32,055 nucleotides of DNA from a virus, in the IMG/VR virus record IMGVR_UViG_3300043409_000891, positions 1 to 32,055 of that record; one strand, written 5' to 3'. This document shows positions 11,367-27,208 of this stretch, piece after piece. The position numbers and the translations under genes are program-made. Below the pieces are notes generated by a model. It saw only the letters and a list, made by a program, of their open reading frames with translations. It was not told where the DNA came from and searched no databases. Positions within the stretch are counted from its first letter, which is position 1, and each line of letters begins with the position of its first letter.

Positions 11367-12419
11367 TTACTTGACGACGCCGAAGGCGAAGGCTTCAGGC
11401 TTCACGACCTTGCGGCCGTACACCGACAGGCCACGAATGAAGTCACCGAAGTCCGAGGGGTTGCGAACCTGCTCCGTCTTGTTCACCTGCGCGGCGAAAC
11501 TGATCGCATCCTTGTGTCCAGCGATGACTACGCGGCGAACGTCCGCGCTGGCCATCGTGCCGCCGGTCGACGTAGCCGCCTGACCAGTGACCCAACCCTT
11601 GCTGGTCGTACCACGCGGCAGCATGTTGCTGACGTAGACCGTGAAGCGGTCGATCATGCCGATCTTGCCAGTACGGACGATGCTGGAGGTGTCTCCGGTA
11701 AAGTACGCTTGCGCAAGGTTGGTCGACATCAGGATTTGCCGGTCGTACGGGCTCATCAGGAGGAAGCGCCCCGATTCAGGCACGTTCTGCTCGTCCAGCA
11801 CCGCGCCCATGTTCAGGATCAGCGTGAGCAGGTTGGCCGCAGTCGTCGTCACCGCGATGGGCGTGATGTCGGTCCCAAGGTTCAGCACCGACGACTTGAC
11901 ACCAGCAGTAGCGCCTTGGTTGGCAGCGGCGCAGCCACGCGTGTTAGCCGCCGTGGTGCTGGCGGTGTTCTTGTCCGTGCCTGCAGTGTCACCAGCCGTG
12001 GTGCAAAACATGCTGAAGAACACTTCTTCGGTAATGGACAGCTTGAGTTGCTTAGAAGCGTCGTCCATGTACATGTTTAGGAGGTTCATGTCGGACTGCG
12101 CTTCCTGCACGTCATTGCACTGGAACGCGAACGACTTGGCCTTCTCGATCAGCATGTCCTGATAGATCGGGGTCGGGACTTCGTACTGCAGGCTTCCGCC
12201 AATTACGTAGTCACTGATCGTCAGCGTCGGCGCGGTGCGGATTCGCACGGTATCGCCTTGGTTCTTAATCTCGCCTTCCCAGCTGGTATTGGTAATTTCG
12301 GCAAGCTGGTTGTCAACGTAGTACTTTGCGTTGAGTTTTTTCGACCAGAGCAGCGGGTTGAACGCCGCTGCAATGGTCGGGCTGGTCAGAAAGGGTGATG
12401 CGGGGGCCAGAATAGCCAT
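11367..12419 (-). CDS. Major capsid protein
   Basis: This 350-residue protein lies just downstream of a scaffold-like gene, in the standard position of the coat gene. It starts MAILAPASPFLTSPTIAAAF and shows coat-like blocks: NTSWEGEIKNQGDTVRIRT, YEVPTPIYQDMLIEKAKSFA, a long helix with AQSDMNLLNMYMDDASKQLK, GRFLLMSPYDRQILMSTNLA, IDRFTVYVSNMLPRG and a final DFIRGLSVYGRKVVKPEAFA. The domain order suits the HK97-fold coat of a short-tailed phage. It has an excellent ribosome site (CTAGGAGATTTACC-ATG) and is followed by a stable hairpin. A two-Cys loop (CTTAGD ... CAAANQ) sits in an Ala/Thr-rich insertion near the middle. Confidence 0.85.
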   Translation of the reverse strand: MAILAPASPFLTSPTIAAAFNPLLWSKKLNAKYYVDNQLAEITNTSWEGEIKNQGDTVRIRTAPTLTISDYVIGGSLQYEVPTPIYQDMLIEKAKSFAFQCNDVQEAQSDMNLLNMYMDDASKQLKLSITEEVFFSMFCTTAGDTAGTDKNTASTTAANTRGCAAANQGATAGVKSSVLNLGTDITPIAVTTTAANLLTLILNMGAVLDEQNVPESGRFLLMSPYDRQILMSTNLAQAYFTGDTSSIVRTGKIGMIDRFTVYVSNMLPRGTTSKGWVTGQAATSTGGTMASADVRRVVIAGHKDAISFAAQVNKTEQVRNPSDFGDFIRGLSVYGRKVVKPEAFAFGVVK

Positions 12420-15311: not shown

Positions 15312-17369
15312 CTACCCAGTACGCCCGGAGACGGTGTTTACCATCTGGTTGGACTGCCTACCCCCCGCCGGAGCCCCGTCTGGGAGCGTGTCAACGGTAT
15401 CCATCTCGGGCTGCATTTGCTGCATTTGCTGTGCTTGCTGCATTTGCTGCATTTGCTGCGCTTCTTGCGCGATCTTGGCCTGCAGTTTCTCGGCCGAAGG
15501 CACAATCTTGTCGACGTTCATGTCCAACAGGCGAGCGTGGTCGCGCAGAAGCTCTCCGGTGCCCAACGGACCCACGATAGCCTGTGCGGTGGCGTTGGTG
15601 AGGACGAGTTGGAGGAACTCTGCACGCCGAACGGCTGCGCTTTCCTTGGCCACAAGGGACATTGCCCCCTTGGCGATGATGTTGATGTCGCCGATGAGGT
15701 CAGGATCAGCCGCGTAGCGCAGGTTGTGCTGGTACAAACGCTCCAGCAGGCGGGAAATGACGTTGTGGTCGATGGAAGAGATGACCGACTTGATGGATTT
15801 CGACGCGTTGCTGATCATCATCGACAGCCCGGAGGCCGTTCTACCTGCTCCGGGTGCCTGTTCGCCGGTCATGTACCGGGGAATACCGGAGTATTCGTCA
15901 GCGAGGGTCTGAAACTTCTCAAAAACAGCCATCAACTCGTTGGAATTTGACTGCGGTTGGAAGAAATCAAGAGGTTTTGACGCGTCTTGGTAGTCCGTAT
16001 TCTGGAACTGCCATATTTTCCACGGGTACATCTGCGTAATGTTCTCACCGGGGGGCAGGCGGCTGACGTTGACGCCTACCTGTGGGCCCGAACTGATACC
16101 CATGTTGTTCGAGAGAGCTCTCGCGGACGCGTTGCACATGTCTTGGCAATCGCGGATCAAATCACAGACACCGTTGCCCCAAAACGCGCCGGGAATTTTC
16201 TCGTACGACGCGGTGTAGTAGGGCTTTCGACCCAGCGGGTCGTAGTTGAGCACCGCTTTGATGACTGTGTTTCCGATTACCCAGACCTCACAGGGGTAGG
16301 ACTTCTCCATGTCAGGTACGCCAGCAGCATCCATGCCCCACTCGACAAGCAACTTACCCTGTACGGTGTCCCACAACTGGATGGCGTCAATCACATCTTC
16401 AGTTCGGTAAGTCTCGGCGTTTAGTTTGCCCTCCGCCGTGGCCATGGCTTGGTCTACGGAAAGAAGTTCAGACTGCCCGACACCAAAGTTACTCAGTATC
16501 GAGCGCAGCGCGGCTTCGTCGTACCCGGGGACCCCGATCATGCCCTCGACGCCCTCGCGGGTCAGTCGATGCCGCTCAATGAAAAACCCGTCGTGGGGGC
16601 TGGCCGACCACGATGCCGGATAGCACATGAACGGATCGACACGTTCCCACTCCAGCGTAATCTTTTCTACAGGGACCAAACCGCCGCCCTGCCACTCCAA
16701 GGTCTTCCTCTTGCGAGGAACCGGCCCTTTCATTATCGCGGTGGGGAACGTGACGATGTCGTCGATGAACTCGGACAAGGCTTCGAGGAATTTTCCCTCG
16801 ATAAGCTGGTCCTCCATTTTCTGCTCCATGCGGTCGACGCGCTTCTCCGCCTCATCCTGCAGCACGCGCATCGCTTCATCCCGCATGCGTTCCTGCTCTT
16901 GCTTGATTAGCGCCGGGGAAGGGGGCTGACCCGTAGACTGGATCATCATCTGTATCGCGCCCATCATGGCATCCTGTGCCATCTTCTGTACTTCGGGTGG
17001 CAGGTCAGGTATGGGTGTCGCATCCAGCGACCACGGTTTGTCCGATCCGGAGCCAAGCAGCGTGTCCCGCAACCACGATGACGCGCCTCGACACTTGGTC
17101 GACGTCAACATCATGTAAATCTCGGAGCCCCCTTGCTCCTTGATAGCTGCCAGCTTGTCCGGGTCGTACTCACCGTTACGCTGTCGCAGGGCTTGAAGGA
17201 GACGTTGCTCCGGTACCTGCTTGGCTACTTTTGCCGACTCCCACCGTTTCTTTACGTGGGACGCGAGCCCTTGAATGACAGGATTGTTCTGATTGTCTGT
17301 GTTGGGTTTTGTCTGCGCCGCTAGCGAGGACGCAGAAGCAACAGGAATCAGTTGACTAAGACCAGCCAT
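15312..17369 (-). CDS. Portal protein
   Basis: This 685-residue protein forms the dodecameric ring at the head vertex through which DNA is packaged. It lies just downstream of the terminase genes. Key blocks are VKKRWESAKVAKQVPEQRLL near the N-terminus, PWSLDATPIPDLPPEVQ, WERVDPFMCYPASWSASPHD, the stem region ALSNNMGISSGPQVGVNVSR, YMTGEQAPGAGRTASGLSMM, and a C-terminal Gln/Met-rich tail. That tail, about residues 634-655, is a QQMQQMQQAQQMQQMQ tract encoded by a DNA microsatellite near 15409-15470. Length and architecture suit the large portal family of podovirus-like phages. GGGAG-TGCTTC precedes the ATG. Confidence 0.88.
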   Translation of the reverse strand: MAGLSQLIPVASASSLAAQTKPNTDNQNNPVIQGLASHVKKRWESAKVAKQVPEQRLLQALRQRNGEYDPDKLAAIKEQGGSEIYMMLTSTKCRGASSWLRDTLLGSGSDKPWSLDATPIPDLPPEVQKMAQDAMMGAIQMMIQSTGQPPSPALIKQEQERMRDEAMRVLQDEAEKRVDRMEQKMEDQLIEGKFLEALSEFIDDIVTFPTAIMKGPVPRKRKTLEWQGGGLVPVEKITLEWERVDPFMCYPASWSASPHDGFFIERHRLTREGVEGMIGVPGYDEAALRSILSNFGVGQSELLSVDQAMATAEGKLNAETYRTEDVIDAIQLWDTVQGKLLVEWGMDAAGVPDMEKSYPCEVWVIGNTVIKAVLNYDPLGRKPYYTASYEKIPGAFWGNGVCDLIRDCQDMCNASARALSNNMGISSGPQVGVNVSRLPPGENITQMYPWKIWQFQNTDYQDASKPLDFFQPQSNSNELMAVFEKFQTLADEYSGIPRYMTGEQAPGAGRTASGLSMMISNASKSIKSVISSIDHNVISRLLERLYQHNLRYAADPDLIGDINIIAKGAMSLVAKESAAVRRAEFLQLVLTNATAQAIVGPLGTGELLRDHARLLDMNVDKIVPSAEKLQAKIAQEAQQMQQMQQAQQMQQMQPEMDTVDTLPDGAPAGGRQSNQMVNTVSGRTG

Positions 17370-17502: not shown

Positions 17503-18906
17503 TCAAGTCCACCCCACCGCATTAACGCGCTTCACCGCCCGGTACTGAGACTCCCCCGCGTAGGACCCCTCGCCCATCAGGTACACCGTCAGGTAAGTGA
17601 ACCCGTCGGCCAAGTCCGACCATGGATGATCTTTCTTGGGTCTTTCCTCCATCTCGCCGTCTTTGCGGGCGGCAAACTTGTACCCATGCTTCAGGGCGGA
17701 GATCAACCCCGTACACCCGGCGTCAATCAGGAGCACAGCTTTGCCTTCGCTTTGCTGGGAAAACATCATCTCCCCGGAAGATATGCGAAGCTCCGTCTTG
17801 TTAGTAGGCGCTGTAATCACCTTGATCCGCTTTTTCTTCACGATCTCGAACACCGTCTCCTCTGTCGGCTGGCTACGCTGCTTAGCCGCTGGGTCGATGA
17901 TGATCTTCACCGGGCACCCCGCGAACCGAGACCGGAGCAGGGGGAGCAACTTAGTGTCGAGGAACCGCTCCATGCCCATGCTGTCTGGCGGCGCAACGTA
18001 GCAATCCGCGAGGATGTGCACCTTCCCCGAGGGGGTGCGCTGGCCGATAATAGCCGCCGGGGTCAACCCCGCGTCCAGCCCAATCAGCAGGGGGTGCGCG
18101 TCCGACACAATGTGCAGTAGCGGCGCGGGAGCGATGTGGAATGACGGCACGAACGTGGACCGGAACACAGGCATCCCTTCCTTGGACGTGCCGTACTCGC
18201 AGTCGATCATGGTCTTCACGTACTCGTCAGACAGACCGTCGGTGTCGTAGTATCCCGGCGGCAGGTAGGCGAGGTTCTCCGCCTCGGGACTTCGCCCACT
18301 GGGCTGCTTGAACAGCACCCACGAGCCCACCTCCCCGTCCATCACCTGCTGGTGCCATGTGTCCTGCGCGGGCATGTTCGTGTCCGCGATGATGCAAGGG
18401 TACGTAGCGCCCGGGCCGTCCTTGCGGCTGGGGTAGCGCCCCACCCGCTTGGTGCCGATCAAGCCCTCCACGATATCTTGGTTGATCTCCCGGAACTCGT
18501 TGAAAAACGCCGTGGTCGTCTCAAGGGACAGGAGCTTGCGGATGTCGTTGGCGTCCTCAAGGGACATGAACAGCACCTCGGACTCCACGTCCTCGAACTT
18601 CATGTAGTACGTCCGGTCGGAGGACACCCACCGCCCAAACACGCCGTCAGGCATCCAGTCTAGGAATGACTTTATCGTCGTAGTCTTCAGCATCGGCACG
18701 GTGTTCCTCACGATGAGGTGCCGGGTCCTGCGGATGCCGTCATTGTCCGGGGCTTGCTGCATGGAGTTCAGCAGGATGTGCATGATGCACGCGCTGGTTT
18801 TCCCGCCCCCCACCGGTCCGGCGAGGATCTTGAACGTGTCGGTTGCCTTCAGAAACCCCGCACAAGTTGGTGATGCCTTGTACGCGAGGCTGTGACTAAA
18901 CGCCAT
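17503..18906 (-). CDS. terL: Terminase large subunit
   Basis: This is the ATP-driven packaging motor and nuclease. In the 467-residue reading from ATG 18906, residues 30-38 are the Walker A-like loop GPVGGGKTS (Lys36). RHLIVRNTVPMLKTTTIKSF follows, and a Walker B-like TTAFFNEFREINQDIVEGL. The C-terminal RNase H-like nuclease carries LLIGLDAGLTPAAIIGQR (first acidic residue), IIIDPAAKQR (second) and HPWSDLADGFTYL near the end (third acidic cluster). An in-frame TTG seven codons upstream is possible, but the ATG has AGGA at suitable distance. It overlaps the small terminase by 11 bases. Length is normal for the family. Confidence 0.92.
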   Translation of the reverse strand: MAFSHSLAYKASPTCAGFLKATDTFKILAGPVGGGKTSACIMHILLNSMQQAPDNDGIRRTRHLIVRNTVPMLKTTTIKSFLDWMPDGVFGRWVSSDRTYYMKFEDVESEVLFMSLEDANDIRKLLSLETTTAFFNEFREINQDIVEGLIGTKRVGRYPSRKDGPGATYPCIIADTNMPAQDTWHQQVMDGEVGSWVLFKQPSGRSPEAENLAYLPPGYYDTDGLSDEYVKTMIDCEYGTSKEGMPVFRSTFVPSFHIAPAPLLHIVSDAHPLLIGLDAGLTPAAIIGQRTPSGKVHILADCYVAPPDSMGMERFLDTKLLPLLRSRFAGCPVKIIIDPAAKQRSQPTEETVFEIVKKKRIKVITAPTNKTELRISSGEMMFSQQSEGKAVLLIDAGCTGLISALKHGYKFAARKDGEMEERPKKDHPWSDLADGFTYLTVYLMGEGSYAGESQYRAVKRVNAVGWT

Positions 18907-19399
18907 CGGCGGTGTCCTGCAAAGCAACGATTTTCACGGTGGGGGAGGGTAGCGCGGGGTTGGCCCCCAAGTCGATGTTGATGCTGATCTTCGGACCCCC
19001 GCTGCCGGTGTCGTTGGGGGCATCCCCCGGGCGCTTGTCCAACCCCGCCCACCGCACGGTATTGGCAATGGCTGTGATGGCCACGCTCGGCGGGGTGTCC
19101 GGACTCTTCGCTATCCTGAACTGCGTGCGCAGCAACTCCTCGGCCTGAACCTGCGCCTTCAGCACAAACGAAGACCCGTTCTCGGTCAACTCCTTGGCAA
19201 ACTCCCGCACCCTGCGTCGGAACAGCTGGTCTTCACACAGGGACTCGAACTCGAACGGCGTCAACCCCAGATCGTAGATCAGCTGTTCCACCGGCAAACG
19301 CGGTCCCACCTGATTGCGGGCCACGTCGAACGCAATCTTCTCCCACTCAAGCGGGTGGGTCGGGGGGAACCCCACGGGGGTACGGGTTGAGTCAGTCAC
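18896..19399 (-). CDS. terS: Terminase small subunit
   Basis: This 167-residue protein lies directly upstream of terL and overlaps it. An N-terminal helical region with LPVEQLIYDLGLTPFEFESL CEDQLFRRRV looks like the helix-turn-helix DNA-recognition part. A central helical pair follows (KELTENGSSFVLKAQVQAEE, then LLRTQFRIAKSPDTPPSVAI), expected to form the ring. The C-terminal tail (ISINIDLGANPALPSPTVKI) is the TerL contact region in comparable proteins. It overlaps the KilA-N-like gene by ATGA. Confidence 0.8.
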   Translation of the reverse strand: MTDSTRTPVGFPPTHPLEWEKIAFDVARNQVGPRLPVEQLIYDLGLTPFEFESLCEDQLFRRRVREFAKELTENGSSFVLKAQVQAEELLRTQFRIAKSPDTPPSVAITAIANTVRWAGLDKRPGDAPNDTGSGGPKISINIDLGANPALPSPTVKIVALQDTADGV

Positions 19400-19662
19400 A
19401 GCGGTTTCTCAATAATTGCCTTGTAGAACGTAACCGGGTCGGCCCAGCGCGTAAACGCCAGAGCCACCATGGGATGCGCCATAGTCTGCGCCGGTTGCCC
19501 GCGATACGCAACGGACGGGGCCGATGAAGCCAGTGCGGGTTCCCCCGTCTCTTTCAGGGCAGACTCAACGGCCTTGTACTCCACGCACCGCCAGAAATTG
19601 CCAAAGCATTTGCTGGGGGCTAGCTTGCGGTGGATGGCGTGGAGGTCGACGTAGGTGGCCAT
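19396..19662 (-). CDS. KilA-N-like small protein
   Basis: The 88-residue product starts at ATG 19662, with AGGA about nine bases upstream; an earlier GTG-type start would add 13 odd residues. ATYVDLHAIHRKLAPSKCFG NFWRC and AHPMVALAFTRWADPVTFYK resemble the two ends of the KilA-N DNA-binding domain (the 'THP-ala-ARW-sPef' signature). The core between them is short, so it is truncated compared with typical 80-110-residue KilA-N domains. As first gene of the leftward arm it is placed like a regulator. It could bind the palindromes of the control region, but that is inference. Confidence 0.5.
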   Translation of the reverse strand: MATYVDLHAIHRKLAPSKCFGNFWRCVEYKAVESALKETGEPALASSAPSVAYRGQPAQTMAHPMVALAFTRWADPVTFYKAIIEKPL

Positions 19663-19976
19663 GGAGGAGATCCTGTAGTGGGTATGTACGCAGTGTACCA
19701 TGTACTAATAGCGGGTACGAAGCTCTCGTAGAAAGTACGACCTTAGAAAAATAGAAAAAAATTTGCGACGTAGGCATCTACTATCATAGGGCGAGGGCCC
19801 ACTGTGTCCCGGTGGGGGGCCCTCGGGGCCATGGCCGTTCCGTAGGCGGCGAGGGGGGATACTACTATCACCGGGCTGGCTCTGTGGGAGTAGACTGCGC
19901 CGGAGTAGGCTAGTACAATGAACTTGTTGGACGTGGAACCCGGACACGACAAACCGGGCTCGATAGGACCGATACC
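19663..19976. other. Divergent control region between leftward and rightward genes
   Basis: About 310 bases without a gene. It contains AT-rich runs (about 19745-19764), a hairpin with 8-bp arms GAGGGCCC / GGGCCCTC (19793-19800 and 19817-19824), CTACTATCA boxes near 19778 and 19862, two GGAGTAG boxes (19888-19894 and 19903-19908), and a rightward promoter (19891-19919). No leftward promoter with good -35 and -10 boxes could be picked out, so leftward transcription may use another signal or start elsewhere. Confidence 0.6.
19891..19919 (+). promoter_or_regulatory. Sigma-70-like promoter for the first paralogue
   Basis: TAGACT (19891-19896), 17 bases, then TACAAT (19914-19919). The -35 matches TTGACA at four of six bases and the -10 matches TATAAT at five of six. 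The bases after the -10 (GAACTTGTTGG) align with those after the second paralogue's promoter (GTACTTGTTGG), so both starts descend from one duplicated control segment. Two GGAGTAG-type boxes overlap the -35 and spacer. Confidence 0.65.
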
Positions 19977-20594
19977 ATGACTGCAACAATCCCTACCGTA
20001 AACCGCGACCCGGCGATTGGCGACCTGTTCGCCTCGGTCGTTAAGGTCGACGCATCGCTGAACTCGAAACTGGGCGAACTCGCCCAGTCCCTTGCGGACC
20101 AAGTTTCGGGATTCGACCTTCCGCATGCGTCGAAGCTTTCCCTGCTCGAATCGGCTTACAGCGCCGATTTTAAGCTTCTCGCCGTGAACAGGAACACGGT
20201 CGCGAGTCTGCGGGCCCTGCTGGTCGCCAAGGTCGCAGGCAACGAACTGGTCGAAGTCTCGGCCCCGTCGACCGATGGAAAGAAAGCCGGAATCAGCAAA
20301 CCCGCGAACATCCTGTCCGCCGGAGAAGCGAAAAAGCTTTCGGCGCAGATCAAGCAACAGATGGTTGAGGCGGAGCGGAGCCCGGAGGAGGAGGCCCGCG
20401 CCGAGGCCCTCGCCAAAAGCATGAAAGCGGCGGCGCAAAAGGTCGCCAACGATGCGGCGACCAAGGCGGTCGCCGAGTTTCAGGAAAAGGCCATGGCATT
20501 TGCGGTCTCCGAACCCGCTCGCGTGAAACTGGTCGAAGCGCTGGCGGCGCAAGGCTTCAAGATCATGAAAGACTCCAAGGCTCCGGCCAAGTAA
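19977..20594 (+). CDS. Paralogue A, alanine/lysine-rich early protein of unknown function
   Basis: This 205-residue, mostly helical protein has blocks shared with paralogue B at 20911: DASLN-KLGELA, FDLP-ASKL-LLESAY-ADFK, NRNTVASLRA, VAG--LVEV-APS-DGK, EAERSPEE-ARAEAL and SMKAAAQ. A charged linker around residues 100-150 suggests two helical domains. No known domain is recognised and there is no membrane segment. It is a one-gene transcription unit with a sigma-70 promoter before it and a strong terminator after it, which suggests early, high expression. Codon choice differs from B (more TCG and GCG here), so the copies are old or came from different sources. Confidence 0.8.
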   Translation: MTATIPTVNRDPAIGDLFASVVKVDASLNSKLGELAQSLADQVSGFDLPHASKLSLLESAYSADFKLLAVNRNTVASLRALLVAKVAGNELVEVSAPSTDGKKAGISKPANILSAGEAKKLSAQIKQQMVEAERSPEEEARAEALAKSMKAAAQKVANDAATKAVAEFQEKAMAFAVSEPARVKLVEALAAQGFKIMKDSKAPAK

Positions 20595-20610
20595 TCCGCA
20601 GCGTCCCGAA

Positions 20611-20645
20611 CCGCACCGGCTGAGGCCCGGTGCGGTCTTTTTTTT
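20611..20645 (+). terminator. Strong intrinsic terminator after paralogue A
   Basis: CCGCACCGG (20611-20619) and CCGGTGCGG (20627-20635) form a perfect 9-bp stem with a seven-base loop, followed by TC and eight T (20638-20645). Confidence 0.9.
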
Positions 20646-20649
20646 GCCT

Positions 20650-20727
20650 CAGCCCCGTGATAGTAGTCCACGCCCCGCCCCCATGCTGCAGCGCACCAAT
20701 GCGCCCCCCACTACTATCACGGGGCTG
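20650..20727. repeat. 18-bp perfect inverted repeat, CTACTATCAC family
   Basis: CAGCCCCGTGATAGTAGT at 20650-20667 is the exact reverse complement of 20710-20727, with 42 bases between. The right arm recurs as a direct copy at 19861-19879 with one mismatch, and shorter relatives (CTACTATCA) lie near 19778 and 21585. It directly follows the terminator, so it may be a regulator site or the remains of the duplication that made the two paralogues. Confidence 0.75.
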
Positions 20728-20734
20728 GCCGCGC

Positions 20735-20749
20735 TACTCCAATGGAGTA
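20735..20749. promoter_or_regulatory. TACTCCA-A-TGGAGTA palindrome
   Basis: Two perfect 7-base arms around one base. It is the cleanest copy of the palindrome family dispersed through the centre and right arm, and lies about 65 bases upstream of the -35 of paralogue B. Its position ahead of a promoter suits an operator, though the family also supplies GGAG ribosome sites elsewhere. Confidence 0.5.
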
Positions 20750-20778
20750 CGCTCTACTCCACCCACCCGGAGCGGGAT

Positions 20779-20804
20779 ACGTACGTTACGTACGTAACGT
20801 ACGT
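20779..20804. promoter_or_regulatory. 26-bp perfect palindrome upstream of promoter B
   Basis: The 26 bases are fully self-complementary and built from ACGT/GTAC steps (central part ACGTTACGTACGTAACGT). The palindrome ends ten bases before the -35 box of the paralogue B promoter. A site of this size and position is expected for a dimeric or tetrameric regulator. No equivalent is seen before promoter A. Confidence 0.6.
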
Positions 20805-20814
20805 TGTGCCCCTG

Positions 20815-20843
20815 TTGACAGGTAACGTATAGCATGGTAGAAT
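20815..20843 (+). promoter_or_regulatory. Sigma-70 promoter for paralogue B
   Basis: A perfect TTGACA (20815-20820), 17-base spacer and TAGAAT (20838-20843). The transcript should start near 20850, where TTGGCTC-GAT-GAGCCAA (20851-20867) forms a perfect 7-bp hairpin at its 5' end, a feature that can stabilise mRNA. Confidence 0.85.
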
Positions 20844-20889
20844 GTACTTGTTGGCTCGATGAGCCAAACGGCCACCCACCGACTGGGCT

Positions 20890-20905
20890 TACTACACTGG
20901 AGTAG
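20890..20905 (+). promoter_or_regulatory. TACTACACTGGAGTAG box acting as ribosome site
   Basis: The box contains GGAG (20899-20902) eight bases before the ATG of paralogue B. The same 16-mer occurs at 21618-21633 (no gene follows closely) and 22847-22862 (before a TTG start), and with one change at 24842-24857. Confidence 0.6.
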
Positions 20906-20910
20906 CTACC

Positions 20911-21525
20911 ATGAGCACAATCCCGAGCGTTACCCGCAACGAACTGATCGCAGGCATTTTCGCTGCGGCCACCAATCTGGACGCTAGCCTAAACGAGAAG
21001 CTGGGAGAACTGGCCAGCATTCTGGCCGCAGAGGTTGCCCCGTTCGACCTCCCGCTGGCCAGCAAGCTGGCGTTGCTCGAAAGCGCGTACGCGGCCGACT
21101 TCAAGAAGATGTCGGCCAATCGCAACACAGTAGCCAGCCTCAGGGCCGCGCTGACCTGTAAAGTTGCTGGCGGTATGCTGGTGGAAGTCAAGGCACCCAG
21201 CAAGGACGGCAAAGCTGGTGCCGTGCTCAAGCCTGCGGACAAGCTGTCAGTGGGTGAGGCGAAGAAGTTCGCTGCCACCGTCAAGTCGGATGCAGCCGAA
21301 GCAGAACGCAGCCCCGAGGAAGCTGCACGTGCCGAAGCCCTTGAGCGTTCCATGAAAGCCGCAGCGCAAGAGGTCAGCAACAAGCTGGCCACAGCGGTAG
21401 CGCAAGCCAAAGCCGAAGAGGCGTTCGCGTATGTCCTCCACGACGCGCAACGCGCCACGCTGGTGGCGAAGCTGGCCGCTGTTGGGTACAAGCTGGCGAA
21501 GCTGACCACGGCACCCACCAAGTAG
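20911..21525 (+). CDS. Paralogue B, alanine/lysine-rich early protein of unknown function
   Basis: The 204-residue product is alignable with paralogue A along its whole length. Blocks DASLNEKLGELASILAAEVA, FDLPLASKLALLESAYAADF, NRNTVASLRAALTCKVAGG, AERSPEEAARAEALERSMKA and AAQEVSNKLA correspond one to one. Between the shared blocks the helices keep length but not sequence. It has its own consensus promoter, a 26-bp palindrome upstream, and its own terminator. The function is unknown; soluble and helical, it could be a host-takeover or nucleic-acid-associated protein, but no motif decides. Confidence 0.8.
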   Translation: MSTIPSVTRNELIAGIFAAATNLDASLNEKLGELASILAAEVAPFDLPLASKLALLESAYAADFKKMSANRNTVASLRAALTCKVAGGMLVEVKAPSKDGKAGAVLKPADKLSVGEAKKFAATVKSDAAEAERSPEEAARAEALERSMKAAAQEVSNKLATAVAQAKAEEAFAYVLHDAQRATLVAKLAAVGYKLAKLTTAPTK

Positions 21526-21541
21526 TTCCCACCAACCTAGC

Positions 21542-21570
21542 AGCCCCGGGCAATCCCCGGGGCTTTTTTT
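21542..21570 (+). terminator. Strong intrinsic terminator after paralogue B
   Basis: AGCCCCGGG (21542-21550) pairs perfectly with CCCGGGGCT (21556-21564) around a five-base loop, followed by a run of seven T. It lies 16 bases after the stop codon. Confidence 0.9.
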
Positions 21571-22291
21571 CGCCCGCACACCCTCTACTATCACCAAGCT
21601 GCCCAGACAGGCATATTTACTACACTGGAGTAGACTCTACTACACACTAAAGGCCAGTGGGATACGTATCGGGCCAAGTGTCAACAAATATGTAGTGGGC
21701 TCAAGCACTTAGCGTTTTTAGTGTCAACATACTTACACCAAGCTTACACACTGGGGTAGGATCTACGGCCCACTAATGGCTAGTAGAATGGGCGAAAGCC
21801 CGAAACGTAGACTGGCGCATACTAGATCTATTATAAATAGAAAGTACGGAGCGTGAAAAGACGCTGTAAGTCGTTGATTACGCAGCAAGTGCCAACTCAA
21901 CCCGGCAGAAAGTGCCACTGACATCCAGAGATGTCAAGAAAAACGCAATGAAACCAACGAGATGCAACCGCAGGTGTCAACTTGCTATACTTGTACATGT
22001 ACATGTACATCAATATCGTGGCGTGTACGGGGGTGACACTGATCCGTACTGCCAGCAACATTTTTCGTATCTCCCCTAACTTCTCCGTTACGCAAAGATT
22101 TCTCTCTCGCCCAAAAAGGTGACAAGTTGACACTTTTCGCGGAATGATTCTCATTACGCTCGTAGCCCGTTGTTTCCTTACGTACTTTCCAATAGCCTAC
22201 AAGTGTCAAGGTTATTAGCGTTTTTGACACCTGCGTTGACACTTTTACTTTCTACTCGTCACTAGCTCCCTCCACCAACTAAGTGCCCCTA
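21571..22291. other. Gene-free, AT-richer region with iterons and palindromes (candidate origin/control region)
   Basis: About 720 bases where no reading frame has a ribosome site or protein-like composition. It holds a TACTACACTGGAGTAG box (21618-21633), GATACGTATC (21661-21670), seven GTGTCAA-type boxes, a hairpin TGACATC-CAGA-GATGTCA (21919-21936), CTATT-ATA-AATAG (near 21828-21840), and TGTACA three times in tandem (21992-22009). The AT content is higher than in the genes. The combination of directly and inversely placed short boxes with an AT-rich stretch is what replication origins and multi-operator regions look like. Confidence 0.5.
21678..22242. repeat. Seven GTGTCAA / TTGACAC iteron-like boxes
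   Basis: Forward copies GTGTCAA(C/G): 21678-21685, 21721-21728, 21974-21981, 22203-22210. Reverse copies (G/T)TTGACAC: 22126-22133, 22223-22230, 22235-22242. Several share the longer form AAGTGTCAAC or GTTGACACTTTT. Spacing is irregular. The reverse form contains a TTGACA, so some copies could also serve as -35 boxes, but no well-placed -10 follows them. Confidence 0.6.
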
Positions 22292-22320
22292 TTGACTTTT
22301 ACTAACCTTTGTGGTATAAT
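22292..22320 (+). promoter_or_regulatory. Near-consensus sigma-70 promoter for the RNA region and right arm
   Basis: TTGACT (22292-22297), 17-base spacer, TATAAT (22315-22320). Five of six and six of six matches make this the strongest -10 in the window. Transcription should begin near 22327, at the start of a 500-base segment with no convincing protein gene. No terminator is evident before the rightward operon, so it may also feed the first genes. Confidence 0.85.
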
Positions 22321-22326
22321 GGTCTT

Positions 22327-22808
22327 AGACGCTGGGGAATTACACCAGCAAGAGTAGATGCTACTCCACTGTAGTATCTACGGCAGCACAGCAGGATGGT
22401 CTGGGATTCAGAGCTTGAGTCTGCAAGGGAAGCACTGGCAATACCGGAAAGCCCCACGCTGCAAGGTGGGTAGCTAGTACGGCGCGAATAACCGAGGGGA
22501 ATCCCCGAGGGCGCGAGGGCGGCAATAGCGCACAGAGATGCGATGCCCTGCAAAACAGAGACCTTGTGAGTTCGGGGTGGAGTAGCTTGCCGCACTGGAG
22601 TGCGGCGAAGCCCTGTAAGGACGACTGAACGAAGCCCCTGCTGGTACCAATATGTGGAGTAACTCCATGGCCAAGGCATGGTGGCTCACTGCCGCCTAAA
22701 CCTCATGGGGTTTCTGTGTGTGCCTTACTGCCAGCCGGTAGGGCCCGGCTCCGACGCAGACAAGCGCGAAGGGGAAGGCTCGGTAGGGCTCACACAGAAA
22801 CCGTACCA
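22327..22808 (+). ncRNA. Candidate large structured non-coding RNA
   Basis: No credible gene lies here, yet hairpins are dense: GCTGG/CCAGC (22331-22335, 22345-22349); an 11-bp stem GTAGATGCTAC/GTAGTATCTAC with six-base loop (22354-22381); CCCAC/GTGGG (22453-22470); GGGG-AAT-CCCC (22496-22506); GCCGCAC-TGGA-GTGCGGC (22589-22606); TGGAG-TAA-CTCCA (near 22645-22657); CCATG/CATGG (near 22656-22680); and a 12-bp long-range stem GGTTTCTGTGTG/CACACAGAAACC (22709-22720, 22791-22802), extended by GCC/GGC, that encloses AGCCGG/CCGGCT (22733-22750). It starts just after a strong promoter. I looked for the tmRNA, RNase P and group I intron core motifs and did not find them. Large ornate phage RNAs such as GOLLD or ROOL are possible relatives, untested. 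The 3' limit is uncertain. Confidence 0.45.
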
Positions 22809-22809
22809 T

Positions 22810-22862
22810 GCAGTACCGTACCCGGCGGACCCGGGGTTGCAGTACTTACTACACTGGAGTAG
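22810..22862 (+). repeat. Repeated leader element, copy 1
   Basis: Bases 22810-22832 (GCAGTACCGTACCCGGCGG and onward) match 24809-24831 almost exactly. Both continue through a CCCGG...CCGGGG hairpin and a GGTT into the TACTAC-ACTGGAGTAG box that supplies the Shine-Dalgarno of the next gene. The pattern suggests a shared promoter, processing hairpin or operator cassette ahead of two early gene groups. Confidence 0.6.
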
Positions 22863-22865
22863 AAC

Positions 22866-23030
22866 TTGAACAAACCGATCTACGAAGACGAGCGCAACTA
22901 CGGACGGGAGGCCCTCGCCATGGCGGCGTGGGTGTTCCTCGTGGTGTGGATGGTGGGGGTGTCGATGGCCGAGGAACCGTCGGGCGGTTGCTCGACGGAC
23001 ACAGAGTGCGAGGAGACGAGCCATGACTGA
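22866..23030 (+). CDS. Small single-pass membrane protein
   Basis: The 54-residue product begins at TTG (22866), six bases after the GGAG of the TACTACACTGGAGTAG box. The polar N-terminus MNKPIYEDERNYGRE is followed by one hydrophobic helix at about residues 17-34 (LAMAAWVFLVVWMVGVSM) and an acidic tail with two Cys (GGCSTDTECEE). It is the first gene of the rightward operon and overlaps the next by eight bases. A small inner-membrane early protein could act on host envelope functions or superinfection exclusion; nothing proves this. Confidence 0.6.
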   Translation: MNKPIYEDERNYGREALAMAAWVFLVVWMVGVSMAEEPSGGCSTDTECEETSHD

Positions 23031-23214
23031 GCAAGAAGTTACACAGGAGCACCTGACCTACCTCGACGCCCTGCGCGAGTCCGGGGTGACCAACATGTTC
23101 GGAGCAGGAGCGTACCTCCAACGCGAGTTCGGCGTCAGCCAGCGTGACGCCCGGTTCATCCTCCAGACGTGGATGGCCACGTTCGAGCAGCGCCACCCGG
23201 GAGGTGCGTCATGA
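23023..23214 (+). CDS. Small conserved phage protein
   Basis: The 63-residue product MTEQEVTQEHLTYLDALRES, then GVTNMFGAGAYLQREFGVSQ and RDARFILQTWMATFEQRH, matches a short phage family with an invariant LR-SG-TNMFGA-YL core and a helix-turn-helix-like second half (FGVSQRDARFILQTWM). It follows the membrane protein with an eight-base overlap and joins the next gene by ATGA. It is possibly a small DNA-binding or adaptor protein; the family is unnamed to me. Confidence 0.65.
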   Translation: MTEQEVTQEHLTYLDALRESGVTNMFGAGAYLQREFGVSQRDARFILQTWMATFEQRHPGGAS

Positions 23215-23399
23215 CCCCCAAGGCCAAGCGCAAGTACACACCACCGAACGACTGGATGCGGGGTCAGTCGACCGCTGCGCTGTTCAAGTGCCTGTTCAAA
23301 GACCTTGAACTTCTGCGGTCGGGGGACTGGATACCGAACGACTACAGCGTTGACTGCACCATCGACGTGCTGAAGGAAATCAAGCGGAGGACGACGTGA
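23211..23399 (+). CDS. Small basic protein of unknown function
   Basis: This 62-residue protein starts at the ATG overlapping the previous stop (ATGA). The N-terminus is basic (MTPKAKRKYTPPNDWMRGQS), followed by two predicted helices (TAALFKCLFKDLELLRSGDW and CTIDVLKEIKRRTT). There is no known motif. It is read in the same coupled operon, with GTGA overlap into the next gene. Confidence 0.55.
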   Translation: MTPKAKRKYTPPNDWMRGQSTAALFKCLFKDLELLRSGDWIPNDYSVDCTIDVLKEIKRRTT

Positions 23400-23725
23400 C
23401 CACCAAGGCCGACATCATCCGCAAGCACTGCGCCGCCCACGGTCTGCCGTTCGTCGACCAGCAGCAGGTCCAGTTTGTGGCCAAGAAGTACAAGAGGGCC
23501 GCTCTGGAGGTGCTGCTGGGCATGCACCCTACTCCACTGGAGAAGCTGGACGAGCGCGACTGGGTGATCCTCCGTGCCATGAGGCTGGCGCACAGGTTCA
23601 ACGGCGACGGTGGGGACAACACGGTGGAGTACACCAAGCTCCTCGCGTGGCTGCGGGACAGGTACGGCTTGGTCCTGATCGCTGACGCGTGTGCGCTGAT
23701 AGCCGCAGAGCGGGCGAAGCCATGA
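23396..23725 (+). CDS. Small helical protein of unknown function
   Basis: The 109-residue product starts at GTG overlapping the preceding TGA. Predicted helices run through ADIIRKHCAAHGLPFVDQQQ VQFVAKKYKR, TPLEKLDERDWVILRAMRLA and YTKLLAWLRDRYGLVLIADA. No domain is recognised. Part of the DNA near 23527 reads CCTACTCCACTGGAG, a copy of the dispersed palindrome kept inside coding sequence. The stop overlaps the next ATG. Confidence 0.6.
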   Translation: MTTKADIIRKHCAAHGLPFVDQQQVQFVAKKYKRAALEVLLGMHPTPLEKLDERDWVILRAMRLAHRFNGDGGDNTVEYTKLLAWLRDRYGLVLIADACALIAAERAKP

Positions 23726-24333
23726 CTCCCCAAGAAGCCCAGATGGTCGACGCCCTTCGTGCCTTGGAGGGGCGCGAGTGGTACTCGTTCGACGAGTTGT
23801 CCGACGCGGGGCAGAAGCACGCCGTGCGTGCGTACGTGGATAACACTCAGGTCGAGCTAAGCACGGACTATGAGGAGGAGATACTCACGGAACTGGGGGT
23901 GGATGACGCCAGTATCTCGTGGTCCGGGTTTGGTAGTCAAGGCGATGGGGCCTCGTTCATCGGCAGCTACGCCTACTCCAGAGTAGTAAACAACGTCGGG
24001 AAGTACCCCGCTGGTGCGCTGGATGAGCTACGCCCCCTGTACAAGCAGCTGATCGCGCTGCAGCGTAGGCACCAGTGGCGGTTGTGTGCCAACATCGAGC
24101 GGAGGACCAGCCGGTACTACCACGAACATACCGTGGACATTAACGTGTACCGCACGGATGATAAGGACGTGCCGGAGGACGTGGCTACGCAGCTTGGCGA
24201 CATCCTGCGGGGCTTCATGCGCTGGGTGTACCGTAGCTTGGAGAAGGAGTGGGACTACCAGACCGGAGAGGGTGCAGTGGAGTACTTGCGCAACTGCTAC
24301 GACCAGTACGACGAGCAGGGGCATTTGCTGTGA
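23722..24333 (+). CDS. Conserved phage protein with SGFGSQGDGASF motif
   Basis: The 203-residue product starts at the ATGA overlap. The N-terminus ALEGREWYSFDELSDAGQKH AVRAY is followed by ILTELGVDDASISWSGFGSQ GDGASFIGSY. This WSGF-SQGDGASF block is a hallmark I recall from phage early proteins labelled only as conserved, sometimes as antitoxin-like. A beta-rich C-terminal half holds RYYHEHTVDINVYR, and a last helix with EKEWDYQTGEGAVEYLR. No catalytic motif is clear. A CTACTCCAGAGTAG palindrome lies inside the gene near 23969. Confidence 0.6.
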   Translation: MTPQEAQMVDALRALEGREWYSFDELSDAGQKHAVRAYVDNTQVELSTDYEEEILTELGVDDASISWSGFGSQGDGASFIGSYAYSRVVNNVGKYPAGALDELRPLYKQLIALQRRHQWRLCANIERRTSRYYHEHTVDINVYRTDDKDVPEDVATQLGDILRGFMRWVYRSLEKEWDYQTGEGAVEYLRNCYDQYDEQGHLL

Positions 24334-24808: not shown

Positions 24809-24857
24809 GCAGTACCGTACCCGGCGGACCCCGGGGTTCATTACTACACAGGAGTAG
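24809..24857 (+). repeat. Repeated leader element, copy 2
   Basis: Near-copy of 22810-22862, with one extra C in the CCCC run and four bases deleted before TTACTACACAGGAGTAG. It precedes the 279-residue DUF3150-like gene with AGGAG six bases before its ATG. Confidence 0.6.
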
Positions 24858-24860
24858 ATC

Positions 24861-25700
24861 ATGAGTCTGAAGGACAAGTGCATGTTGGTGAGTCTGTCCA
24901 TTGGCAAGCCGCAGATGACGGCCAAGGACAAGCAGGCGACGACCGAGGTTGCGGTCGACAAGCACGCCACGGAGGACGTGGTGGCGGTGACCAAGAAGCT
25001 GTACCCCAAGCACATGCTCAAGCCCATCCTGCACGCGGAGACGGCGGCGAGGTCTTACCTCAAGAGTGTGACCGAGCCGAGGGGCCCCGGGCTGGGCGTG
25101 CTGCCCTCCAAGCTGTTCATGGAGTTCCACCCGAAGATGGGCGAGTTCCGCGTTGGGTTCTTCCAAGCGGTGACGGTGTTCCTCAACAACTACTCCAGTG
25201 TATTGGCCATCGCACAGAGCCAGCAGGGGTCGATGTTCGAGCACAACACGTACCCGGACGTGAGCCAGTTGCGTTCGGAGTTCTCGTTCGACGTGTTGTA
25301 CCCGTCTCTGGAATCAGCGGGCAACATCACCCTGCAGATGGAGGCCGAGGGCCTCGCCGTCTACCGCAAGGAGATCGAGGCGCAGACCAACGTCAACCAA
25401 TCGGCACGGCAGAAGATGCTGTTCGGTAGGTTGGGAGAGGCGGTCAAGCGCATCAGTGTCCAGTGCGGCAAGGAGGATGGTAAGATTTACGACACGCTGA
25501 CCAGCAACCTCGACGACATGCTGCGCATCCTCCCCGCGCTCAACTTCGACGACGACCCTGTGTTCAACGCGGTGTGCGTGGATGCCCGCAAGCTGCTGGT
25601 GGCACCGCAAGCGATACGCACCGTGCCCGAGGTGCGCCAGACCGTGGCGTCTACGGCCGATGAGATCCTCGCCAAGATGGCCGCAGCGGGGTTCGCATGA
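24861..25700 (+). CDS. DUF3150-like partner of the MoxR/VWA module
   Basis: This 279-residue helical protein starts MSLKDKCMLVSLSIGKPQMT. It contains VTKKLYPKHMLKPILHAETA ARSYLKS, LPSKLFMEFHPKMGEFRVGF, LRSEFSFDVLYPSLESAGNI, LFGRLGEAVKRISVQCGKED and LTSNLDDMLRILPALNFDDD. I associate this domain with DUF3150 proteins that travel with MoxR-type ATPases and VWA proteins, though the name is from memory. It likely forms the third component of the module whose ATPase and VWA subunit follow. There is no enzyme motif. The start is set by the AGGAG inside the TACTACACAGGAGTAG box. Confidence 0.6.
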   Translation: MSLKDKCMLVSLSIGKPQMTAKDKQATTEVAVDKHATEDVVAVTKKLYPKHMLKPILHAETAARSYLKSVTEPRGPGLGVLPSKLFMEFHPKMGEFRVGFFQAVTVFLNNYSSVLAIAQSQQGSMFEHNTYPDVSQLRSEFSFDVLYPSLESAGNITLQMEAEGLAVYRKEIEAQTNVNQSARQKMLFGRLGEAVKRISVQCGKEDGKIYDTLTSNLDDMLRILPALNFDDDPVFNAVCVDARKLLVAPQAIRTVPEVRQTVASTADEILAKMAAAGFA

Positions 25701-25915
25701 TTGACCCCGCTGTCCCGCAGTGCATTCTCATCGTGGGGACGCAGCACCTGCTGATGCCGCAGGAGGATGCGTTCAACCTGTTCCGCAAGCTGCGGGACGC
25801 TACGGCGCTTGACTCCCACTACGGTGCTAAATACACTGTAGATACTACTAAAGCGGAGCTTCGCATTGCGTCGCTCAGCCCCACCGCGCTGGCTGCGATT
25901 CTGTTGGCGGAGTGA
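25697..25915 (+). CDS. Small protein of unknown function
   Basis: The 72-residue product starts at the ATG overlapping the previous stop. It shows a strand-rich start (AVPQCILIVGTQHLLMPQED), one helix (AFNLFRKLRDATALD) and a beta end. ACTGTAGATACTAC inside its DNA resembles the dispersed palindrome. No family was recognised; it is probably co-translated with the DUF3150-like gene. Confidence 0.5.
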   Translation: MIDPAVPQCILIVGTQHLLMPQEDAFNLFRKLRDATALDSHYGAKYTVDTTKAELRIASLSPTALAAILLAE

Positions 25916-26100
25916 TGGAGTTCACGTACAAGGTGGAGTTGGCGGAGTTTCACCGGATGCCCCGGGTCAGTACGTCGGCTCGATGGGTAACCGTGTCGTA
26001 CGGGTGGTTCAACTGGGTGTACTTCAGGGACGTACCCGCCCCCAGTGATACCGCCCGCGCAGTAGCAATGACTAAGGCATTGTTGCAGCTGGACGCATGA
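25912..26100 (+). CDS. Small protein of unknown function
   Basis: The 62-residue product starts at GTG (25912), overlapping the previous TGA, or at the ATG directly after it (25915). A beta-rich N-terminus (EFTYKVELAEFHRMPRVSTS), an aromatic patch (WFNWVYFRDVP) and a C-terminal helix (DTARAVAMTKALLQLDA) are visible. No domain is recognised. It is the last gene before the palindrome and the MoxR gene. Confidence 0.5.
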   Translation: MMEFTYKVELAEFHRMPRVSTSARWVTVSYGWFNWVYFRDVPAPSDTARAVAMTKALLQLDA

Positions 26101-26128
26101 CCTTCCCCGAAGGGTTTCGGGTTAACCA

Positions 26129-26145
26129 CTACTCCATGGGAGTAG
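26129..26145. promoter_or_regulatory. CTACTCC-ATG-GGAGTAG palindrome before the MoxR gene
   Basis: Two perfect 7-base arms around three bases, lying 17 bases before the ATG of the AAA+ gene. The gene's own Shine-Dalgarno is a separate AGGAG (26151-26155), so here the palindrome is not needed for ribosome binding. That favours a regulatory role for the family. Confidence 0.55.
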
Positions 26146-26161
26146 ACGATAGGAGTTACGA

Positions 26162-27208
26162 ATGAAGATCGAGTGGATTGCAGAAGAACTGGTGGAGAAC
26201 TACAACAACCTCCACCGTCGTCGTCGCACGATGTTCCTGCTGGGGCCCTCTGGTGTGGGCAAGTCGGACAGCATCCGTGAAGCGGCAGCGACACTGTCCT
26301 CGCAGTACAAGTGCGCTGTACCGGTGCTCGACAAGCGGCTCAGCCAGATGGAGCCGCCGGACTTCGGTGGAGTACCCAGCGTGGTGAACGGCCGGACGGT
26401 GAAGAACGTGCCGGACTGGTGGCCCTCCGACCCCGACAGCCGTGGCATCCTGCTGTTGGACGAGATCACGAGCGCCCCGCCCGTGATGCAGGCTGCGGCA
26501 TACGAGGTGGCGTTGGACCTCAGCATGGGCGGTGAGCCCCTGCCTGAAGGCTGGATGGTCGTGGCTGCGGGTAACCGTGCGTCTGACCGTGGTGTCACCT
26601 ACCCGTTGGCAGCACCCCTGCTGGCACGGATGACCGTGGTGACCGTGGAGTCGAGCCTCGATGGGTTCGTCGCGTACTGCGGCAAGCACAACGTACGTGG
26701 CGAGATTGTCGCGTTCGTGAAGAGCCGTGGCGAGTACCTCAACGAGCGCGACGAGACGATCAACACCAAGATCGCGGAGTTGCCCATCGGCAAGCCGTTC
26801 AGTAACCAACGTGCTTGGACTACGGCAGCGCAGTACTACCTCGACAGCCCGGTAGAGCGGCGGTTGGAGTTGATGCGCGGCAGTGTGGGGGACCGTGCTG
26901 CTACCGACCTAGAAGTGTTCTTGCGTATCTGGCAGACCATGCCCTCCATCGACGCGATCTTCAAGGACCCTGACTCCGTGGATACTCCAAAGGATGCAGC
27001 TACACGTTACGCTGTGTCGGTGGGGATCGCGGTGCGCCTGACGGCGACGAACTTTGCCATGGCCAAGAAGTACTTCGACCGGCTCCCGGGCGAGTTCAAG
27101 GCACTAACGGTGAAGCTCGCCTACAAGCGCGACAACACCATCGCGGAGTGCGCGGCGTTCGCTGAGTTCGTGGCGGAGAACCCCGAGTTGTGGAAGAGGG
27201 GGGCCTGA
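26162..27208 (+). CDS. MoxR-family AAA+ ATPase
   Basis: This 348-residue ATPase has Walker A GPSGVGKS at residues 28-35, Walker B ILLLDE at 96-101, sensor-1 Asn in AAGNRASD (Asn138) and an Arg in LLARM (about 156) as arginine-finger candidate. Its closest family is the MoxR/CobS-like chaperone ATPases, which remodel or activate protein complexes using a partner VWA protein. The expected VWA partner is at 27868. The DUF3150-like gene precedes it. AGGAG-TTACGA stands before the ATG. The target complex is unknown. Confidence 0.88.
   Translation: MKIEWIAEELVENYNNLHRRRRTMFLLGPSGVGKSDSIREAAATLSSQYKCAVPVLDKRLSQMEPPDFGGVPSVVNGRTVKNVPDWWPSDPDSRGILLLDEITSAPPVMQAAAYEVALDLSMGGEPLPEGWMVVAAGNRASDRGVTYPLAAPLLARMTVVTVESSLDGFVAYCGKHNVRGEIVAFVKSRGEYLNERDETINTKIAELPIGKPFSNQRAWTTAAQYYLDSPVERRLELMRGSVGDRAATDLEVFLRIWQTMPSIDAIFKDPDSVDTPKDAATRYAVSVGIAVRLTATNFAMAKKYFDRLPGEFKALTVKLAYKRDNTIAECAAFAEFVAENPELWKRGA

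Follow-up and report, generated by a model that had tools for sequence, protein, structure and literature searches.

Introduction

What is encoded by half a kilobase of phage DNA that follows a strong early promoter and appears to hold no gene? The question is raised by positions 22,327 to 22,862 of the IMG/VR phage contig IMGVR_UViG_3300043409_000891, whose 32,055 bases, analysed here as a whole, are called the window. A first-pass annotation had proposed that the stretch encodes a structured non-coding RNA of unknown class, in the manner of the large ornate phage RNAs GOLLD and ROOL. Part of that proposal stands: the stretch is promoter-driven and noncoding, is probably transcribed over about 540 nt and matches no Rfam family. 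The likeness to a GOLLD/ROOL-type ornate RNA does not stand. We argue here that the region is a long cis-regulatory 5′ untranslated leader of the rightward early operon, a reading to which we give a probability of about 0.6, and we weigh this against the other roles that such a region could play.

Genome layout of the window

Late genes occupy the minus strand and early genes the plus strand, the latter from about 19977; landmark genes and the features discussed below are collected in Table 1. Cultured phages are distant kin only, with terminases that match over most of the protein at less than 40% identity (e.g., Rhizobium phage RHph_TM27A and Pseudomonas phage Rollin). A close relative is found in IMGVR 3300021963_000339 (G001, L007; hereafter L007), which is about 97% identical where the two align. 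Since the far end of L007 overlaps the left end of the window at 99%, the two combined point to a genome of about 56 kb. A paralogous gene pair of no assigned function lies at 19977–20591 and 20911–21522; its members are 58% identical, each is followed by a strong intrinsic terminator, and no kin of either were found beyond L007.

Table 1. Features of the window, with strand and main properties
Feature	Position	Strand	Properties
Major head protein	11367–12419	minus	
Portal	15312–17369	minus	
Large terminase	17503–18927	minus	
AT-richer upstream region, putative control region	21600–22290 (to ~22300)	plus	46% GC vs about 61%; 8 of the window's 17 TGTCAA/TTGACA words
σ70-type promoter	22292–22320	plus	TTGACT-17-TATAAT, extended −10 (TG); 11 of 12 consensus positions
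Putative untranslated 5′ leader of the early operon, ~540 nt	22326–22865	plus	start placed from the promoter; no phage-like ORF, terminator-like site or Rfam match
Palindrome copy near leader 5′ end, CTACTCCACTGTAGTAT	22361–22377	plus	complementary to the ribosome-binding site at 22846–22862 and paired with it in the MFE fold
Strong long hairpin	22709–22802	plus	20-nt arms 22709–22728/22783–22802, 90% complementary
3′ module: CCCGG-CGGAC-CCGGG hairpin plus palindrome	22810–22862	plus	duplicated at 24809–24857 (83% identity, E 1.4e-12; 37-nt repeat at 89%)
Palindrome copy with Shine–Dalgarno GGAG of next gene	22846–22862	plus	3 nt ahead of the TTG start at 22866
First early gene after leader, 54 aa	22866–23030	plus	TTG start; likely membrane segment; codon log-odds +0.23
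Second copy of 3′ module	24809–24864	plus	precedes the gene at 24861 (DUF3150-like)
MoxR-like ATPase	26162	plus	early
DUF2201 protein	27856	plus	early

A promoter followed by noncoding DNA

The near-consensus σ70 promoter that had been called at 22292–22320 is real, with TG ahead of its −10 element; 11 of 12 consensus positions are reached by two sites only in the whole window, this one and the one at 20815. Across 19600–24000, a promoter scan found eight promoter-like sites, compared with 1.4 in shuffles. The AT-richer stretch at 21600–22300, directly upstream, is a candidate replication origin or operator cluster. Further away, upstream of the second near-consensus promoter at 20815, the stretch 20641–20890 shows some of the strongest local folding of the window (z −5.6), the source of which is a perfect 18-bp inverted repeat (20650–20667/20710–20727) together with a CGTACGTTACGTACGTAACGTACG palindrome.

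Codon usage bears out the earlier statement that the region holds no credible protein gene. Every ORF that touches the leader has negative codon log-odds (−0.10 to −0.39, vs +0.11 to +0.42 in established genes), and no ORF with phage codon usage was found in 22321–22865; on these grounds we rejected a concealed gene. The plus-strand ORF at 22678–22869 was also rejected on account of the relative, in which a 4-base difference in the length of the hairpin loop would shift its frame. Known RNA classes fare no better. Rfam covariance models, a search that had been suggested with the first-pass annotation, gave no match at the gathering threshold in the whole window and, at E ≤ 10 over 21500–23000, chance-level matches to other families only. 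Neither tRNA nor tmRNA was found in the window; the first-pass annotation had likewise seen no core motifs of tmRNA, RNase P or group I introns.

No terminator-like site was found on the plus strand of 22327–22866. The position at which the proposed RNA had been taken to end, 22862, is the end of a palindrome that holds the Shine–Dalgarno sequence of the gene at 22866, and not an RNA 3′ end. This gene overlaps the next start at 23023 and has no PHROG match. With no terminator in sight, a first coding-like gene that begins at 22866 and its Shine–Dalgarno sequence within the second palindrome copy, the region is best read as a 5′ leader: the features of a cis-acting leader are there, namely a promoter, a noncoding stretch free of terminators and, at the end, a Shine–Dalgarno sequence and a start codon.

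Excess folding comes from a single hairpin and paired palindromes

The first-pass annotation had described dense hairpins across the whole region, which turn out to be mostly an effect of base composition. There are five perfect stems of at least 7 bp, compared with 3.4 ± 1.8 in shuffles, and 27% of shuffles have as many. The middle 320 nt (22378–22698) fold with a z of −0.08 against shuffles, the 250-nt window at 22401 (22401–22650) has a z of +0.52, and a fold scan of the whole window confines the region's clear excess to about 22561–22810, on both strands. The region as a whole does fold with z −3.8 to −4.2 in the sense direction, owing to one hairpin and to the mutual pairing of two dispersed palindrome copies. 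The antisense strand folds as strongly (z −4.6), as expected from inverted repeats in DNA, and stretches elsewhere in the window, such as 20641–20890, fold more strongly than the region does. The excess that a large structured RNA would be expected to carry along its whole length is thus limited here to one hairpin and the palindrome pair. Where a region is GC-rich and repeat-bearing, as here, local controls are needed before low folding energy is taken for an ornate RNA.

The hairpin itself is far above chance. Its 12-bp stem, which pairs 22709–22720 with 22791–22802, exists exactly as first described and forms part of a 20-nt inverted repeat; none of 60 shuffles contained a stem of at least 12 bp. 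The AAACC/GGTTT hairpin near 22699–22713, proposed as a switch-like competitor of this stem, is indeed present in the sequence, but at 5 bp its stem is unremarkable. Part of the hairpin loop has been swapped in L007, where the 20 bases at 22751–22770 of the window are replaced by 24 different bases (about 2036–2059), although the phages are otherwise near-identical there. The variable loop was considered as a guide and rejected in that role, since it has no 12-base complement in its own phage, where one same-strand 12-mer was the only match.

A dispersed palindrome lies at some ribosome-binding sites

The window contains the palindrome CTACTCCANTGGAGTAG at 12 sites, none of them outside 20.7–29 kb, giving 24 both-strand matches vs 0.26 expected. 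Four of the 12 sites fall within 25 nt upstream of a start, over the 13 early starts listed, whereas random placement would yield 0.48 (P about 0.001). Copies stand 3–5 nt before the starts at 20911, 22866, 24861 and 27868, with GGAG serving as the putative Shine–Dalgarno sequence. Seven of the 12 copies lie away from start codons, and some lie within genes. The hairpins formed by single copies at ribosome-binding sites are weak.

In the MFE fold, the stem predicted to close the whole RNA is formed by the copies at 22361 and 22846. Since a palindrome is complementary to every other copy of itself, this closing stem needs no RNA function as its explanation. In the full-leader fold, the GGAG within 22846–22862 has an unpaired probability of 0.00, that is, it is completely masked in the prediction. 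Such masking is an automatic consequence of two copies of one palindrome, and DNA operators may produce it as a by-product. Furthermore, since palindromes with GGAG stand just before starts and a duplicate of the region's last 50 bases precedes the gene at 24861, the end of the region reads as a translation-initiation module.

Relatives and conservation

Leader homologues are scarce. None was found among 50,697 phage records, and scans of viral contigs with neighbouring proteins and DNA words found the leader in IMGVR 3300021963_000339 only. One exact-word scan of genome contigs for the leader returned nothing, and a terminase profile scan returned one short partial match only; eight other contigs with the word GGCAATACCGGAAAGCC had nothing in common beyond that word. 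The sole leader-bearing relative, at about 97% identity, is too close to supply covariation.

The first 430 nt of the leader differ from L007 at one position, whereas the gene at 20911 has 29 differences over 615 nt (Fisher 4e-6). We dropped this low divergence as a sign of selection, since the drop near the leader starts inside the preceding gene and a 1225-nt coding stretch from 25397 (25397–26622), which served as a control, has zero changes, its flanking stretches differing by several percent. The patchy divergence between the window and L007 is a pattern of mosaic recombination.

More distant relatives were found via the portal and terminase proteins. At their early/late junction, too, lie noncoding stretches, which are unrelated in sequence to the window leader, and noncoding sequence appears to turn over rapidly between relatives of this phage group. 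In L012, 704 noncoding bases extend from a perfect TTGACA-17-TATAAT promoter to the first early gene (1543–2240, minus strand; z −9.7) and contain TGTGACATTGTCACA palindromes. The junctions of L026 and L069 fold with a z of about −10 on at least one strand and are rich in repeats of their own. Phages of the group carry unrelated repeats of their own there: TGTGACATTGTCACA in L012, TAAGACAAT in L069 and a TTGGTTGCGCAACCAA-like word in L013.

Another noncoding leader with conserved blocks (GCGCGAAyAGTAACGGGGAATCA, TCGGGTAATGCCGG and GACTTGyTCCGyTCGGTGTAG) occupies the same junction in L055 (6433–6960, minus strand), in its near-copies L115 and L116, and in L049 (41–579, minus strand). In an alifold model of its core, two-sided changes occur in 5 of 51 pairs, a number equalled by 3 of 500 shuffles, among three distinct sequences of which two are nearly identical. 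No Rfam family was matched, and the L055/L049 leader is a better structured-RNA candidate than the window leader. The two were also compared directly. Neither an nhmmer profile of the L055/L049 leader nor its covariance model at default filters matched the window leader, where the covariance model R1 scored at best 3.9 bits (plus strand) and 4.2 bits (minus strand), below its matches elsewhere in the same stretch. Two apparent traces of homology were considered, 17 of 23 positions matched at 22482 and the word GGCAATACCGGAAA matched at 22437, but the block order is reversed and both profile and covariance searches fail, and homology was rejected. A separate G/C-rich element upstream of the terminase genes, at about 6960–6890 in L055, recurs in many phages of the group, among them L053, L067, L072, L069 and L077, and is possibly a cos or pac site.

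Discussion

Our preferred reading is that of a leader acting in cis on the operon behind it. Host RNA polymerase would start at the 22292–22320 promoter, transcribe some 540 noncoding bases and then, meeting no terminator, read through into the early genes from 22866. Within this transcript, the 5′ palindrome copy at 22361 would pair with the downstream ribosome-binding site, at the end of the leader, and could mask its Shine–Dalgarno sequence, with the hairpin at 22709–22802 drawing the two copies nearer to each other. The role of the leader is most likely cis-regulation of the first early genes, which could be exerted through the timing of translation and/or through a phage regulator acting on the palindromes. 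Those parts of the scheme that can be read from the sequence itself are the promoter, the noncoding nature of the stretch, the family of palindromes with its placement at ribosome-binding sites, and the hairpin. A leader is likewise supported by L012 (704 nt), L055, L116 and L049, in which the early side of the junction contains long noncoding stretches. Counting against it, the 54-aa first gene is backed by codon bias alone and has no database match.

The main rival to the leader reading is control exerted mainly on DNA, with the palindromes as operators for a phage regulator beside an iteron-type origin at 21600–22300, and with RNA folding as a by-product. The equal folding of the two strands (sense z −4.2, antisense z −4.6) fits such operators, as do the palindromes within genes and outside the leader, the AT-rich, repeat-bearing stretch directly upstream, a cumulative GC skew whose minimum falls near 21–22 kb of the window, and the unrelated repeats that occupy this junction in other phages of the group (L012, L069 and L013). 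It leaves unexplained, on the other hand, why some 500 noncoding bases should follow the start site, why the 22709–22802 hairpin exists and why palindrome and Shine–Dalgarno sequence should coincide, and we regard it as unlikely. Origin and transcript could also be linked more directly: a promoter and an approximately 540-nt transcript beside a candidate origin recall RNA II of ColE1, and the transcript might by analogy prime replication at the adjacent AT-rich region. It heads away from that region, however, and the genome of the close relative L007 encodes a helicase and a primase/helicase, which makes priming scarcely credible.

Two further possibilities place the function in the RNA. By analogy with put RNA or nut sites, an element within the leader might modify transcription of the early operon by antitermination. 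Such elements lie just downstream of a strong early promoter, as this region does; in HK022, about 270 nt separate putR from the start site upstream of it (PMC9378689). On the early strand, though, terminator-like sites are no more numerous than chance predicts, and with no visible need for antitermination we consider it improbable. The stand-alone large RNA of a new class, as first proposed, can draw on a noncoding, promoter-driven region with no Rfam match, on one hairpin far above chance, and on the related pair L055/L049, which does carry a noncoding, RNA-like leader with its five two-sided changes in 51 pairs. That model, however, finds nothing convincing in the window leader; 22378–22698 shows no excess folding; and there are neither a terminator nor relatives able to show covariation. 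With more than half of the region folding as its shuffles do, a closing stem made of copies of a 12-fold palindrome, and a 3′ side that runs without a terminator into a ribosome-binding site, the idea of a large ornate RNA is not supported and we find it highly doubtful.

Within the leader reading, a more ambitious version can be formulated, in which the 5′ copy at 22361 acts in cis, masking the Shine–Dalgarno sequence of the first early gene, and could also pair in trans with the ribosome-binding sites of 20911, 24861 and 27868, coordinating early translation. Trans pairing is conceivable because at least these three other genes have the same ribosome-binding-site sequence; we treat this version as a long shot. 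If the palindrome did couple ribosome-binding sites to the leader, it would amount to a simple RNA-based coordination of several phage genes. If the region is a leader and nothing more, it documents how the early control region is organised in an uncultured phage group whose noncoding sequence turns over fast.

Comparison with known systems

Like GOLLD and ROOL, the region is noncoding, several hundred nucleotides long and phage-encoded. Those RNAs are supported by covariation over many sequences and are often near tRNA islands (PMC12286853). The window region, in contrast, matches neither family, and the window has no tRNA, proximity to tRNAs being common in these families but not universal; more than half of the region lacks excess folding, a gene follows directly, and the sole relative is near-identical, leaving no covariation. 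Closer in context is the leader of L055, L115, L116 and L049, which is likewise noncoding, belongs to the same phage group and separates the late block from the first early gene, but which has no detectable homology to the window leader in sequence or structure.

In the operator or 'stoperator' systems of temperate phages such as mycobacteriophage L5, a short motif is repeated over one transcription arm, with some copies at gene starts. The palindrome resembles these systems in recurring many times over one arm and in standing at some gene starts; it differs from them in that the motif is a palindrome and overlaps Shine–Dalgarno sequences. Finally, put RNA is about 70 nt long and has two stem-loops (PMC9378689), vs about 540 nt for the window leader. 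As in the early-operon leaders of phages with HK022 put RNA or lambdoid nut sites, the region lies directly downstream of an early σ70 promoter, is noncoding, contains hairpins and would be read through into the early genes.
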